DNA of 32,433 nt from Chloroflexota bacterium. Its GTDB lineage: Bacteria; Chloroflexota; Anaerolineae; UBA1429. The position numbers were made by a program, and so were the translations under genes. The notes beneath the pieces are model-generated. The model saw only the letters and a program-made list of their open reading frames with translations. It was not told where the DNA came from and searched no databases. The stretch spans positions 1 through 32,433 of the forward strand of contig JAJFUJ010000199.1 of the NCBI GenBank assembly GCA_021372475.1. Reading direction: 5' to 3'. Below, in pieces: positions 7,531 through 16,560 of the stretch (positions within the stretch are counted from its first letter, which is position 1; each line of letters begins with the position of its first letter).

Positions 7531-7555
7531 TAGATCAGATCACATCCGAGGAGTG

Positions 7556-8461
7556 ATGGAAGCGATTCAAGGCCTCGTTATCCGCACCCACGGCGGACAC
7601 TACTATGTACAAGCCGAACAGGGACTCTTCGATTGTACCTTGCGCGGCAAGCTCAAGCATGAGCGCAGTGCCAGTGATATCATCGCTATTGGCGACCAGG
7701 TGATGCTTCTGCCGGAAGCGGGCGGTCACGGCGCCATCACGCGGGTGTTACCGCGTAAATCTGCCTTTTCGCGCTGTCCGCCTCCCCCCAGGCGCCCGAT
7801 GGAACAGGTCATTGTGGCCAATCCGGACCAGGTGTTGATTGTCTTTGCCGCCAGTTCACCCCCTTTGAACCCGTTGATGCTGGACCGCTATTTGGTGGTT
7901 TGTGAAGCCGCTCGGCTCAAGGCGCTCATCGCTATTAACAAAATGGATGAAACCGATGATGACACAATCGAGGAACTGATGGCGCTCTATCGCCAAATTG
8001 GATATGCCGTTTGGCCGGTAAGCGCGGTCAGCGGCCAGGGTTTGGCCGAACTGCACGCGCAACTGCGGGATAAACTGACGGTTGTTGTTGGACCTTCCGG
8101 GGTAGGCAAATCAAGCCTGCTGAACGCCTGGTGGCCGGAGCTAAACCTCAACACCGGGGAAATCAGCACTTATCACGACCGCGGGAAACACACCACGGTT
8201 GTTGCTGAGCTGTTGCATCCGGAGCCCCCTGTATATATCGCCGATACTCCCGGCCTGCGTCAGCTTCGCTTCTGGCACGTTTCTCCCGCCAGCCTAGCGC
8301 AACTATTCATCGAGTTTGAACCTTGGATCGGTGACTGCCAGTTCGAGCCGTGTTCGCATATCACCGAGCCAGGGTGCGGCGTACGCGCCGCCGCTGAACG
8401 CGGCGACATTTCCGCATCACGGTATACTAGTTATTGCCGTATGATTGAACTCGGTTTCTAA
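7556..8461 (+). CDS. rsgA: Ribosome small-subunit-dependent GTPase RsgA
   Basis: A circularly permuted GTPase that helps mature the 30S subunit. An N-terminal OB-fold (about 1-70) is followed by the permuted G domain. G4 NKMD is at 128-131, G1 GPSGVGKSS at 179-187, and G3 DTPG at 230-233. A C-terminal zinc knuckle has Cys and His residues in CQFEPCSHITEPGCGV. All nucleotide-binding motifs are intact and the 301-residue length is usual. GTG at 7553 and ATG at 7556 are adjacent in frame. GAGGAG ends only 2 bases before the ATG, so the exact start is slightly uncertain. It sits 22 bases before the next gene. The functional link to its neighbours is not evident. Confidence 0.95.
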   Translation: MEAIQGLVIRTHGGHYYVQAEQGLFDCTLRGKLKHERSASDIIAIGDQVMLLPEAGGHGAITRVLPRKSAFSRCPPPPRRPMEQVIVANPDQVLIVFAASSPPLNPLMLDRYLVVCEAARLKALIAINKMDETDDDTIEELMALYRQIGYAVWPVSAVSGQGLAELHAQLRDKLTVVVGPSGVGKSSLLNAWWPELNLNTGEISTYHDRGKHTTVVAELLHPEPPVYIADTPGLRQLRFWHVSPASLAQLFIEFEPWIGDCQFEPCSHITEPGCGVRAAAERGDISASRYTSYCRMIELGF

Positions 8462-8484
8462 CTGCTCCTATGTGAGGAGGCAAG

Positions 8485-9462
8485 ATGCCCTATCCGCTCT
8501 TTGACCGCTCTAAACTACACCTGAGGCCGCTGCATGAGCGCGCACATGATGTGCAATATGCGCAACTGGCGCAGCTCACGGACGCCATCGACCCATTTGA
8601 CCATCCTGACCTGCATAAACTTGCCCAAGCGGTGCAGGCAGCCCGCCAGAGCGGGGCTGCAACTATCCTGATGATGGGCGCTCATGTCATCAAGAGCGGT
8701 CTATCGCGGTATATCATCGACATGATGGAGCATGGATGGATCAGCCTGGTAGCACTGAACGGCGCAGGGATGATTCACGACTATGAGCTTGCCACCAGCG
8801 GTGCCACCAGCGAGAGCGTCGCCCGCTACATCCGCGAAGGCCAGTTCGGCCTGTGGCAGGAAACGGGACGCTTGAATGACCTTGCCAGCGCAGCAGCGCA
8901 TGCAGGGCTTGGACTGGGTGAAATGGTCGGTCGCACGTTGCAGGAAGAAAATGCGCCGTATCGAGATATCAGCATCCTGGCAGCCGGTTACCGACTCGAG
9001 ATTCCGGTAACTGTGCACGTCAGCCTGGGCTATGACATAATCCACGAACATCCCAACTGCGACGGCGCGGCGCTAGGAGCCGCCTCGTATACCGACTTCC
9101 TGGTATATGCGCAGATGGCCACCCGGCTCGAAGGCGGAGTGATGATTGCAGCGGGCACAGCGGTAATGGGGCCGGAAGTGTACCTAAAAGCCTTATCGAT
9201 GGCGCGCAATGTTGCTTATCAGGAAGGAAAATCCCTCAGTCATTTCACTACCGCAGTATTCGACCTGCAGCCGCTAGGCGACGACTTGCATCGCGAGGTT
9301 CCTAAAACGGACGCACGTTATTATTTCCGCCCCTACAAGACGATTCTGGTGCGCACTGTGCAGGATGGCGGCACGAGCTATTATATTCAGGCCGAGCACC
9401 GTCAAACGCTGCCGAGGCTGCATCACTTGTTATGTTGTTCAGCGGAGCAGGCCAATGGATGA
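8485..9462 (+). CDS. Deoxyhypusine-synthase-like protein of unknown function
   Basis: A 325-residue soluble protein with no membrane segment. It has segments reminiscent of the NAD-dependent deoxyhypusine synthase fold: MMGAHVIKSGLSRYIIDMM (about 53-71), VALNGAGMIHDYELA, ATSGATSESVARYI, IPVTVHVSLGYDIIHEHP, DGAALG and a late GTAVMGPEVYLKAL. The usual deoxyhypusine synthase catalytic Lys region is not obvious, and no bacterial target protein is in the window, so that activity should not be assumed. A strong GAGGAGG precedes the ATG. Its end overlaps the PfkB kinase start by 8 bases, so the two are made together and probably act in one pathway. My unverified recollection is that homologues often sit beside heptose-type sugar kinases. 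Confidence 0.7.
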   Translation: MPYPLFDRSKLHLRPLHERAHDVQYAQLAQLTDAIDPFDHPDLHKLAQAVQAARQSGAATILMMGAHVIKSGLSRYIIDMMEHGWISLVALNGAGMIHDYELATSGATSESVARYIREGQFGLWQETGRLNDLASAAAHAGLGLGEMVGRTLQEENAPYRDISILAAGYRLEIPVTVHVSLGYDIIHEHPNCDGAALGAASYTDFLVYAQMATRLEGGVMIAAGTAVMGPEVYLKALSMARNVAYQEGKSLSHFTTAVFDLQPLGDDLHREVPKTDARYYFRPYKTILVRTVQDGGTSYYIQAEHRQTLPRLHHLLCCSAEQANG

Positions 9463-10489
9463 AAAGCGCTTACAGGAAATCCTGGGCAAGTTCAAGCGCG
9501 AGCACATTTTGGTCGTGGGCGATTACTTTTTGGACAAGTACTTGCAAATAGATGGCAGCCTTGGCGAAATATCGCTCGAGACCGGCTTAGTTGCTCATCA
9601 GGTGACGTCCATCAATACCAGCCCGGGGGCGGCTGGTAACGTGGCCGCCAATGTCTGCGCCCTTGGGTCGCAAGTGGCAGCCCTCACCGTGCTCGGTGAC
9701 GATGGCGAAGGCTACGACCTGCGCCGTCGACTGACCGAACTCGGTGTGGACCTCAGCGGGGTAGTTACCAGCCCTCTACGCTTTACGCCCACCTATACCA
9801 AGCCGATGATGCACGAGGCGGATGGACAGGTCCGCGAAATGTCGCGCATCGACCATAAAAACCGCACCCCGCTTGCGGAAGATCTGGAGAGGCAGGTCAT
9901 CGCAAAGCTGGACAAATTAATTGCCGATGTCGACGGGGTTATCGTTACTGACCAGGTACAGGAGCGCAACTGCGGCGTGGTGAGCGACCGGGTGCGCGCC
10001 AGGCTGAGCGAGCTAGCTGAGAAACGCCGCGACATTCCCTTTGTGGTCGATTCACGGCTCAGACTGGGAGAGTACCGCGGGATGTACCTGAAACCCAATG
10101 AACACGAGGCGTATCGTGCTCTCGGCTGGCAAGCAGAGGGGGCCATCGGCATTACAGAGGCCAGCACTGCCGGCCTGGAGCTGAGTTCGCGCAGCGGCAT
10201 TGCCGTTTTTCTGACTATGGGCCCGCAAGGCATCCTGGTATGCGCGAACAGCCGCGCGCAGCGCGTGCCGGCCGTGCCCGTTGAGGGACCAATCGATATT
10301 GTCGGTGCCGGCGATAGCGCTATCGCCGGCATCACCAGTGCCCTGTGCGCCGGCGCAAGCCCGGTTGAGGCGGCGTTGGTTGGTAACCTGACGGCCTCGG
10401 TAACAATCCGCTGTATCGGCACCACCGGCACTGCCAGTCAGGCGCAGGTGCACGCGGCCCTGGCTACGTGGCAGGCTGGGTTAAAGTAA
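9455..10489 (+). CDS. PfkB/ribokinase-family sugar kinase (HldE/RfaE kinase-domain-like)
   Basis: The ATG at 9455 is chosen because GGAG lies 7 bases upstream and the upstream part of the open frame is shared with the preceding gene. This gives 344 residues. Motifs in order: ILVVGDYFLDKY (about 18-29), SPGAAGNVAANVCALG (PfkB signature-1 region, 57-71), LGDDGEGYDLRR, PTYTKP, IKNRTP-like and VDSRLR segments, KPNEHEA, and the anion-hole/catalytic-base motif GAGDSAIAG near the C-terminus. This order matches the kinase half of heptose-phosphate kinases. The nucleotidyltransferase half of HldE is absent. The substrate is likely a sugar or sugar phosphate. It is the last gene before a strong terminator, translationally coupled to the deoxyhypusine-synthase-like gene. 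Confidence 0.83.
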   Translation: MDEKRLQEILGKFKREHILVVGDYFLDKYLQIDGSLGEISLETGLVAHQVTSINTSPGAAGNVAANVCALGSQVAALTVLGDDGEGYDLRRRLTELGVDLSGVVTSPLRFTPTYTKPMMHEADGQVREMSRIDHKNRTPLAEDLERQVIAKLDKLIADVDGVIVTDQVQERNCGVVSDRVRARLSELAEKRRDIPFVVDSRLRLGEYRGMYLKPNEHEAYRALGWQAEGAIGITEASTAGLELSSRSGIAVFLTMGPQGILVCANSRAQRVPAVPVEGPIDIVGAGDSAIAGITSALCAGASPVEAALVGNLTASVTIRCIGTTGTASQAQVHAALATWQAGLK

Positions 10490-10540: not shown

Positions 10541-10548
10541 TTTATGTG

Positions 10549-10630
10549 TGCCCCCGGCTGGATTTGAACCAGTACGTCCAACTGGACACAGGCCCTCAAC
10601 CTGCTGCGTATGCCATTCCGCCACGGGGGC
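10549..10630 (-). tRNA. tRNA-Leu (anticodon GAG)
   Basis: The minus strand folds as a class II tRNA of 82 bases. The acceptor GCCCCCG pairs with CGGGGGC, with discriminator A. The D arm is TGGCGGAATGGCATACGC. The anticodon stem GCAGG/CCTGT encloses the loop TTGAGGG (anticodon GAG, reading CUC/CUU). The long variable arm is GTCC-AGTT-GGAC, and the T arm is CTGG-TTCAAAT-CCAG with one A-C mismatch at its base. The CCA end is not encoded, so it must be added afterwards. Confidence 0.96.
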
Positions 10631-10728: not shown

Positions 10729-11766
10729 ATGCGTATAGTCTTGGACGCGATGGGCAGCGACCATGCCCCTCAGGTAGATGTAGCGGGCGGCGTACGTGCA
10801 GCGCGTCGTTTTGGGCAGGAGATAACTCTTGTTGGCGACCAAAAGCGCATCCAGCAGGAGCTGGACCAATATGATACGGCAGGGCTCAAGCTGACGGTTG
10901 TCCATGCCGACCAGGTGATTGAAATGGGTGAACACCCCAGCGAGGCGGTACGCAATAAGCCAGGCTCTTCAATGGTGGTGGGGATGAAGCTCGTGCGCGA
11001 TGGCCAGGCCGATGCTTTTGTTTCGGCGGGCAACTCTGGCGGGGTATTGGCCACAGCGCTTGTTTCCGCCGGGCGGCTGGAGCGCATTCATGGCGTTCAG
11101 CGTCCAGCGATATCCACCCTGGTACCGACCGCCGGCGCCAAAACGCTGCTATTGGATATCGGCGCCAATACGGATTGCAAACCGGATTGGCTCGTGCAGT
11201 TCGCCCTTATGGGATCAGCCTACGCTAAGGTGCTGGGAGTAACGAATCCGCGCGTAGCCTTGTTAGCTAACGGCGAGGAAGACACAAAGGGCAATGCCGC
11301 GGTACAAGCAGCCCATGCGCTGCTGCGGCAGTTGCCGCTTAATTTCGTGGGCAACGTCGAAGGCAAAGATATCGTGCGCGGCATTGTTGATGTGATAGCC
11401 TGCGATGGTTTTGTGGGGAATGTGGCGCTCAAGACGGCCGAAGGTGTTTTTTCGATGATCCTTAGCCAGATCAAACAAGAGATTAAGGCTAAGCCGCTGA
11501 CTAGCCTCGGTGGATTGCTGGCAAAACCGGCTTTTAAAACGGTGAGCAAAAAGCTCGATTATCGTGAGTATGGCGGTGCGCCACTGCTCGGTGTCAATGG
11601 TGTTGTCATTATTGCCCATGGACGTTCGGATGCGTTGGCCATGGAGAATGCTATCGGCGTGGCAATCAACTGCGTAGAGAACAAATTAGTTGAAGGGGTA
11701 CGCAGCGATATCGAAGCCAGCCTGCCTACCCTGACCCGTTTGATGCAACCGCAGCAACAAACCTAG
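10729..11766 (+). CDS. plsX: Phosphate acyltransferase PlsX
   Basis: This enzyme converts acyl-ACP to acyl-phosphate, the first step of phospholipid synthesis with PlsY. The 345-residue protein opens with RIVLDAMGSDHAPQ, the family signature. GDDxRI-like ITLVGDQKRI, GMKLVRDGQADAFVSAGNSGG, LLDIGANTDCKP, LLANGEEDTKGN, NFVGNVEGKDI and CDGFVGNVALKTAEG follow, all in normal order. It is a peripheral cytoplasmic enzyme without membrane helices. GGAGGGAGC precedes the ATG. It is often found with fabH/fabD/acpP, but here it is followed 7 bases on by a small NERD-like membrane protein, forming a two-gene unit ended by the hairpin at 12505. Confidence 0.96.
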   Translation: MRIVLDAMGSDHAPQVDVAGGVRAARRFGQEITLVGDQKRIQQELDQYDTAGLKLTVVHADQVIEMGEHPSEAVRNKPGSSMVVGMKLVRDGQADAFVSAGNSGGVLATALVSAGRLERIHGVQRPAISTLVPTAGAKTLLLDIGANTDCKPDWLVQFALMGSAYAKVLGVTNPRVALLANGEEDTKGNAAVQAAHALLRQLPLNFVGNVEGKDIVRGIVDVIACDGFVGNVALKTAEGVFSMILSQIKQEIKAKPLTSLGGLLAKPAFKTVSKKLDYREYGGAPLLGVNGVVIIAHGRSDALAMENAIGVAINCVENKLVEGVRSDIEASLPTLTRLMQPQQQT

Positions 11767-15714: not shown

Positions 15715-16560
15715 TCACCCTGCATAGCAATATACACATCTATGACAATGTGTCCAATGGCCATAGCTGCCGATGTCATAGTATGGTGCGCATCCGCAGC
15801 CAGGCCGGCTGCCCTTGCCTGGGGGAATAGCGGGCTTTCTACCGGAAAGCCGGTAGAACCATTCGGCGTCGCCGCATGCCGCGCGCCCCAGACCAGGCAC
15901 CAGCTCCGCAAGCTGGGAGGATTCGGCGCAGCAAGCCAGATGCAGCCCATAAGGCTCAGCCAAGGCAACTAGCTCACGAGCAGTGCCGGCTCGCCAGGCG
16001 TCATCATAAGCGGGCATACCCGCTGCCCAATCGGGCAGTTTTTGGGCGAGACGGCTGTCGACACGCTTGTAACTGCCGGGCGGCGCCAGGAAATTGATGA
16101 CACCGCGCCTGACGCCGTACGAAGCTATCTCGGCAGCCAACTGCTGAAAAATCTCCGGTTTGTGCACCGTCGGGATGACGGGGTCATAGCGCCAGCAGAT
16201 ATGGTCGACGCCGCCAAGGACGCGCGCAAGCAGAGGGATGCCGGACGCGCTTGATCGTGGCACCAGGGGCTCCCATATGCTACCTGCCAAGCCGGTTACC
16301 GTCACTTGAGCGGTAATGGTAGTGCCTGCCGTCGCCAACTCGCTGAGGATAGCTTCCCCCTGACGCAGCATACCTAGGGGATCCTTTGTCCAGAGCTGCA
16401 GGACCCATGGCGCGCCAAAGGTGTCGAGCACTTGCCTGAGCGCCAGCCAACTGAGCGGTGAGCGCGCCGGATCGGTGCGGCGGGTAAGATCAATATAGAC
16501 CGCCTCGCCGACACGCGCTTTATATTGTCCGAAACTTGCAAGTGAAAACGAGAGTGGCAT
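15715..16560 (-). CDS. DUF1848 family protein with C-terminal Cys cluster (shortened end)
   Basis: A 281-residue protein whose N-terminal part (ARVGEAVYIDLTRRTDPARSP, WTKDPLGML) and middle (PVIPTVHKPEIFQQLA, INFLAPPGSYKRV) follow DUF1848, a family of unknown function. The end carries GCGCAPYYDIGSYGHW then CHRCVYCYAG. Family members, as I recall them, have a CxxxCxxC arrangement like radical-SAM clusters and extend some 20 residues further. Here the spacing is CxxCxxC and the protein stops one residue after YCYA. It starts 1 base after the nagA stop, so it is translationally coupled to an amino-sugar gene. A metal-binding or iron-sulfur role is inferred only. Confidence 0.72.
   Translation of the reverse strand: MPLSFSLASFGQYKARVGEAVYIDLTRRTDPARSPLSWLALRQVLDTFGAPWVLQLWTKDPLGMLRQGEAILSELATAGTTITAQVTVTGLAGSIWEPLVPRSSASGIPLLARVLGGVDHICWRYDPVIPTVHKPEIFQQLAAEIASYGVRRGVINFLAPPGSYKRVDSRLAQKLPDWAAGMPAYDDAWRAGTARELVALAEPYGLHLACCAESSQLAELVPGLGRAACGDAEWFYRLSGRKPAIPPGKGSRPGCGCAPYYDIGSYGHWTHCHRCVYCYAG

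Follow-up and report, generated by a model that had tools for sequence, protein, structure and literature searches.

A GSU2086-family protein with the deoxyhypusine synthase fold and its PfkB kinase neighbour: a conserved gene set probably linked to sugar-phosphate metabolism

The stretch of 32,433 nucleotides from a Chloroflexota genome that was analysed here (the window) contains a gene encoding a protein similar to deoxyhypusine synthase (DHS), and the end of this gene overlaps the start of a gene for a PfkB-family kinase. The question is which reaction the DHS-like protein could perform beside such a kinase. The original prediction regarded the two genes as a candidate for an undescribed two-enzyme system of one pathway that perhaps makes a phosphorylated sugar. 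The features of the locus are as follows.

7553-8461: rsgA, upstream of the DHS-like gene
8474..8480, plus strand: Shine-Dalgarno-like GAGGAGG before the DHS-like gene (sequence)
8485..9462, plus strand: GSU2086-family protein, DHS/AgrE-C fold, predicted NAD-binding, 325 aa (NF052581, AlphaFold, VIA-align)
9455..9462, plus strand: stop/start codon overlap of 8 bases, ATGGATGA (sequence)
9455..10489, plus strand: PfkB-family sugar kinase, heptose-7-phosphate kinase type, 344 aa (PF00294, TIGR02198, 4e84 profile match)
10548-10630, minus strand: tRNA-Leu, downstream of the kinase gene
10729-11766: plsX, downstream of the kinase gene and tRNA-Leu

Both predicted ORFs and their 8-base overlap were confirmed from the sequence. 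The DHS-like ORF begins with ATG, and the GAGGAGG motif lies just 5' of it. The kinase frame is open from position 9365 in the longest ORF and ends at 10489; its start was placed by homology at the ATG at 9455, where the matches of related kinases begin (codon 1 or 2), and a Shine-Dalgarno-like GGAG is located 7 bases 5' of this codon. The overlap ATGGATGA is consistent with translational coupling of the two genes. As for the upstream gene, RsgA was ruled out as a pathway partner: its relatives were called in none of the 80 loci described below, so the position of rsgA appears to be local. No phage match was found. In another part of the window (15715-16560), a gene for a DUF1848 protein is flanked by an amidohydrolase gene and a DUF3417/phosphorylase gene.

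Family, fold and conserved residues of the two proteins

The product of 8485-9462 belongs to the NCBIfam family NF052581, with a full-length match (residues 6-314) of 386.8 bits, far over the cut-off of 250. This family already bears a name (GSU2086 family protein) and has no reaction assigned to it, in line with the prediction of an undescribed reaction. The score of the same product with Pfam DS (PF01916) is 19.3 bits, below the gathering cut-off of 27, and no PF01916 match was detected in the window genome at an E-value of 0.001.

The AlphaFold model of the protein, built from 61 sequences, has a mean pLDDT of 91.2 and a pTM of 0.91. In the VIA-align comparison, the solved folds closest to the model were those of the cyanobacterial AgrE/ArgZ C-terminal domain (Z about 19), followed by deoxyhypusine synthases at a Z of about 18; the DHS fold was found with Z values of 18-18.9 across ~250 residues. 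A profile search of PDB sequences gave weak matches (E 0.001-0.03) of the N-terminal third to AgrE/ArgZ and to an archaeal LOR/SDH protein, and two relatives of the DHS-like protein score above the Pfam threshold of PF21570 (ArgZ-like_C_2nd), a C-terminal domain of the ArgZ-like type. Profile and fold searches were needed here, as the search of the PDB with the single protein sequence returned matches at chance level only; aligning the profile with individual DHS sequences gave weak results that omitted the C-terminal half. Since deoxyhypusine synthases are among the nearest solved folds, the predicted likeness to DHS is right as to fold, with the ornithine cyclodeaminase half of AgrE/ArgZ equally near; the protein itself is not a DHS, being below the Pfam cut-off and without the catalytic lysine. 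From the fold and the conserved residues we infer that the protein may use NAD. In addition, some DHS-like proteins of Chloroflexota MAGs (L047:276-1418, L051:7866-9035, L059:7962-9068) carry ~13-33 extra residues inserted around position 157.

Catalysis by human DHS proceeds through an imine formed on Lys329 (PMC7226451). The equivalent lysine is retained in CdmS, a bacterial homologue of DHS (PMC10981699). The lysine is also kept in a DHS relative (L115, GGGSPK) of another genome of the same class as the window genome, whose gene adjoins an agmatinase-like gene. MAFFT did not align the C-terminal half reliably with DHS, and the register of the Lys329 segment was therefore assigned manually, guided by the conserved strand-glycine pattern. 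In this register, lysine occupies the catalytic position in none of the 61 GSU2086-family relatives, and none lies at 222-234, the Lys329 segment. The equivalent segment reads GTAVMGPEVYL (family pattern G-T/S-A-V-M-G-P-E), the site itself being occupied by M/I/T and G/A throughout the 61 sequences. Invariant in these relatives are H67, N92, D99, E101, H178, D184, H187, H189 and D193, as well as E231, K235, R241, R282, K285 and R290, among ~50 invariant positions in total; the many basic residues may suit an anionic substrate. A third kind of DHS-fold protein was observed in a genome of the same class (L117:1450-2430): it is above the PF01916 cut-off, apparently lacks the catalytic lysine (GGGIAGDF), and its gene adjoins an agmatinase-like gene.

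A true DHS or homospermidine synthase was thus ruled out by the score, the missing lysine and the gene context. DHS and the DHS-like homospermidine/caldomycin synthases (PF01916) share with the window protein the fold (~250 residues) and the N-terminal nucleotide-binding region, but the window protein is 11-14% identical to them and has neither the catalytic lysine nor a context of polyamine genes. The C-terminal ornithine cyclodeaminase part of AgrE/ArgZ and the archaeal LOR/SDH protein (TIGR00300 type) share the fold (Z about 18-19) and, at residues 41-108, show a weak similarity in sequence, and some GSU2086-family members pass PF21570; however, identity is ~14-16%, and the window protein has no arginine dihydrolase domain and has sugar-phosphate gene partners.

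The kinase matches PF00294 with 109.8 bits and TIGR02198 with 163.6 bits, the latter under the equivalog cut-off of 345. Its best PDB relative in the profile search is the heptose 7-phosphate kinase 4e84 (E 4.7e-27; next best, 9e-18), and the GAGD motif (G284, A285, G286, D287) is invariant in 34 kinase relatives. The kinase was therefore rightly described as heptose-kinase-like, HldE/HldA, with which it shares the PfkB domain and the GAGD motif, being nearest, though the equivalog cut-off is not reached.

Gene neighbourhood and co-occurrence

A scan of GTDB genomes yielded 80 loci, the titles of which name Chloroflexota, Armatimonadota, Acetothermia, Latescibacterota, Acidobacteriota, Planctomycetota, Omnitrophota and Bacillota. 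The kinase gene lies directly downstream of the DHS-like gene on the same strand in 59 of the 76 loci with enough flank, in about eight phyla, so the adjacency is not due to chance and the predicted pair is conserved. An adjoining kinase is missing at the next-door position, the one examined, in 17 loci, many of them from Planctomycetota or Bacillota MAGs. Directly upstream of the DHS-like gene, a HAD phosphatase of ~275 aa is encoded in 54 of 78 loci; this family (alignment A2) is distantly related to phosphatases of the phosphoserine and phosphoglycolate types.

A minority of the loci also encode a GmhA-like SIS protein near the DHS-like gene, frequently together with a ROK sugar kinase. In Flexilinea, Leptolinea and four further genomes (G029, G036, G037, G040), one version of the DHS-like protein carries a fused SIS domain. 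According to the search for PDB relatives, the SIS domains are nearest to phosphoheptose isomerases (E 3e-35). The SIS/DHS-like fusion, kinase and HAD genes form one run in G037, and on the Chloroflexota plasmid CP069395 the genes for the HAD, DHS-like, kinase and SIS proteins follow one another without interruption. The conserved unit is consequently larger than the two enzymes first proposed and comprises the HAD phosphatase, the DHS-fold protein and the PfkB kinase, to which a GmhA-like SIS isomerase is often added.

Some loci have additional neighbours. In Flexilinea and Leptolinea (L088:11239-13460, L089, L095), a second, SIS-fused DHS-like gene stands beside separate SIS and ROK kinase genes, close to the HAD-DHS-kinase trio. 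The trio is preceded by genes for a Gfo/Idh oxidoreductase, an IolE-like TIM barrel and an SDR protein in L073:4140-8957 and other Roseiflexaceae loci, neighbours hinting at a possible link to inositol-like or sugar catabolism.

The HAD phosphatase gene of the window genome lies on another contig (C147, L113 7715-8548); its product is 56% identical to an armatimonad copy and has no NCBIfam match. A long-insert SIS protein is encoded on contig C125, where the GmhA-like SIS protein scores 100.6 bits against the GmhA cut-off of 209. All four parts are therefore present in this genome, two of them linked. In the same genome (98% complete), no match was found to the HldE adenylyltransferase domain (TIGR02199), nor, at an E-value of 1e-15, to GmhB (TIGR00213). 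Ordinary ADP-heptose synthesis is thus unlikely, the standard pathway was rejected for this genome, and the activation step is not visible.

Co-occurrence was analysed in 59 related genomes, 20 of which have the DHS-like gene; the p-values assume independent genomes, some of which share a genus or family, and some of the exceptions are fragmented assemblies. The DHS-like and HAD genes occur together in 19 genomes (DHS-like alone in one, HAD alone in two; p 3e-12). When the kinase family was defined strictly (E below 1e-70, set after the score gap was seen), joint presence was found in 17 genomes, with the DHS-like gene alone in three and the kinase alone in none (p 4e-12); at the looser preset E of 1e-50, the kinase is also found in seven DHS-negative genomes (p 8e-7). 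The long-insert SIS protein is present in 10 of the 20 DHS-positive vs. 1 of the 39 DHS-negative genomes (p 3e-5), and neither SIS type was detected in five of the 20 at the thresholds used. HldE-C and GmhB showed no association with the DHS-like gene over the 59 genomes. Together with the conserved pair, these data support the earlier proposal of one pathway and a phosphorylated sugar.

Possible reaction and rival explanations

The gene partners suggest that the DHS-fold protein probably performs an undescribed NAD-dependent step in the synthesis of a phosphorylated sugar. We give an even chance to the full reading, namely that the pair belongs to a cytoplasmic sugar-phosphate pathway, most likely of heptose, in which the DHS-fold protein would carry out an NAD-dependent alteration of the sugar phosphate. 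The class of pathway is fairly well supported, and the partner enzymes, the SIS fusion and the invariant basic residues all point to such a substrate. Heptose itself is likely but left open, because both the kinase and the isomerase are below the equivalog cut-offs and, at the thresholds used, no SIS protein was detected in a quarter of the DHS-positive genomes.

The cassette resembles the ADP-heptose pathway (GmhA, HldE, GmhB) in its GmhA-like isomerase, HldE/HldA-like kinase and phosphatase. It differs in the additional DHS-fold protein, in a HAD protein outside the family of GmhB, the phosphate-removing enzyme of that pathway, and, for the window genome, in the missing HldE adenylyltransferase domain. 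In a tentative order of steps, the GmhA-like SIS protein would interconvert ketose phosphate and aldose phosphate, the PfkB protein would phosphorylate C1 to give a bisphosphate, and the dedicated HAD protein would take off the other phosphate, leaving a sugar 1-phosphate. The GSU2086 protein would act on one of the sugar phosphates with bound NAD+ as a prosthetic group: a carbinol would be oxidised, inversion or rearrangement would follow, and NADH would reduce the product back, yielding a heptose phosphate that is epimerised or otherwise altered. In characterised relatives with the DHS fold, NAD+ serves to oxidise an amine transiently; by analogy, the same use is proposed for a hydroxyl of a sugar phosphate, with epimerisation as a guess. 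The wider generalisation, that GSU2086 proteins are NAD-dependent epimerases or rearranging enzymes of sugar phosphates in an alternative heptose-phosphate pathway of many phyla, including lineages without ADP-heptose machinery, is possible and somewhat less probable than the reading for the pair.

Genetic data come from Geobacter sulfurreducens, where hldE, GSU2086 and gmhA bear consecutive locus numbers. Transposon fitness values on electrodes were -3.1 for GSU2085 (hldE), -3.2 for GSU2086 and -3.7 for GSU2087 (gmhA), and the study describes GSU2086 as a hypothetical protein belonging to an operon for sugar biosynthesis (PMC5585712); such scores can also arise from polarity within a single operon. 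In Solidesulfovibrio, genes for a nucleotidyltransferase-PfkB fusion, a DHS-like protein and a SIS protein are adjacent in a nonulosonate-type glycan cluster. On plasmid pDCAR1 of this genus (L128:9561-18067), a gene for a NeuB-type synthase is followed by these three genes, with three radical SAM genes after them; this could be an unusual sugar cluster. The literature searched contained no papers tying the GSU2086 family to heptose enzymes and no biochemistry for any of its members.

The DHS-fold protein could instead act on an amine, for example an amino sugar or a sugar-amine conjugate shared with the kinase and phosphatase. The characterised relatives found here (DHS, homospermidine/caldomycin synthases and the AgrE/ArgZ ornithine cyclodeaminase) are all amine enzymes, with spermidine, agmatine and ornithine as substrates, and the kinase has a weak match of 49 bits to fructoselysine 6-kinase. 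This explanation is nevertheless unlikely, given the absent catalytic lysine, partners that are phosphosugar enzymes, the many basic residues among the invariant ones, and a neighbourhood of the GSU2086-type gene free of polyamine genes, unlike the lysine-bearing bacterial DHS genes of relatives, which adjoin agmatinase-like genes. We consider equally improbable a catabolic cassette, in which the cell would import a sugar, phosphorylate and isomerise it, and have the DHS-fold enzyme alter it on the way into central metabolism, with no nucleotide sugar made. Several loci have sugar ABC transporters, ROK kinases, deoC and Gfo/Idh oxidoreductases in their vicinity, which would fit it, as would the missing HldE adenylyltransferase of the window genome; a kinase with a dedicated phosphatase is, however, typical of a bisphosphate biosynthetic relay such as that of ADP-heptose synthesis, and the Desulfovibrio-type and Geobacter copies accompany a nucleotidyltransferase-kinase in sugar or surface-glycan operons.

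A non-catalytic partner that binds NAD(H) or a sugar phosphate and regulates the kinase or isomerase would agree with the tight gene linkage and the SIS-domain fusions, and DHS pseudoenzyme subunits are known in trypanosomatids (according to a title cited in PMC10981699). The family's invariant positions, several of them His, Asp, Glu or Lys, resemble those of a catalytic site more than structural ones, and this role seems very improbable. The NAD-dependent alteration of a sugar phosphate is the reading preferred here.

The gene set is a real, conserved and biochemically unassigned system; its central family has a name, and no pathway was proposed for it in the literature searched. The core of the original prediction thus stands, corrected and extended to more enzymes. 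If the preferred reading is true, it would provide a function for a widespread family and extend the DHS/ornithine cyclodeaminase fold from amines to sugars. It would also indicate a modified heptose-type pathway in environmental phyla, e.g., Chloroflexota, Acidobacteriota and Planctomycetota, and would explain the importance of GSU2086 for the growth of Geobacter on electrodes, where the defects of hldE and gmhA are similar.
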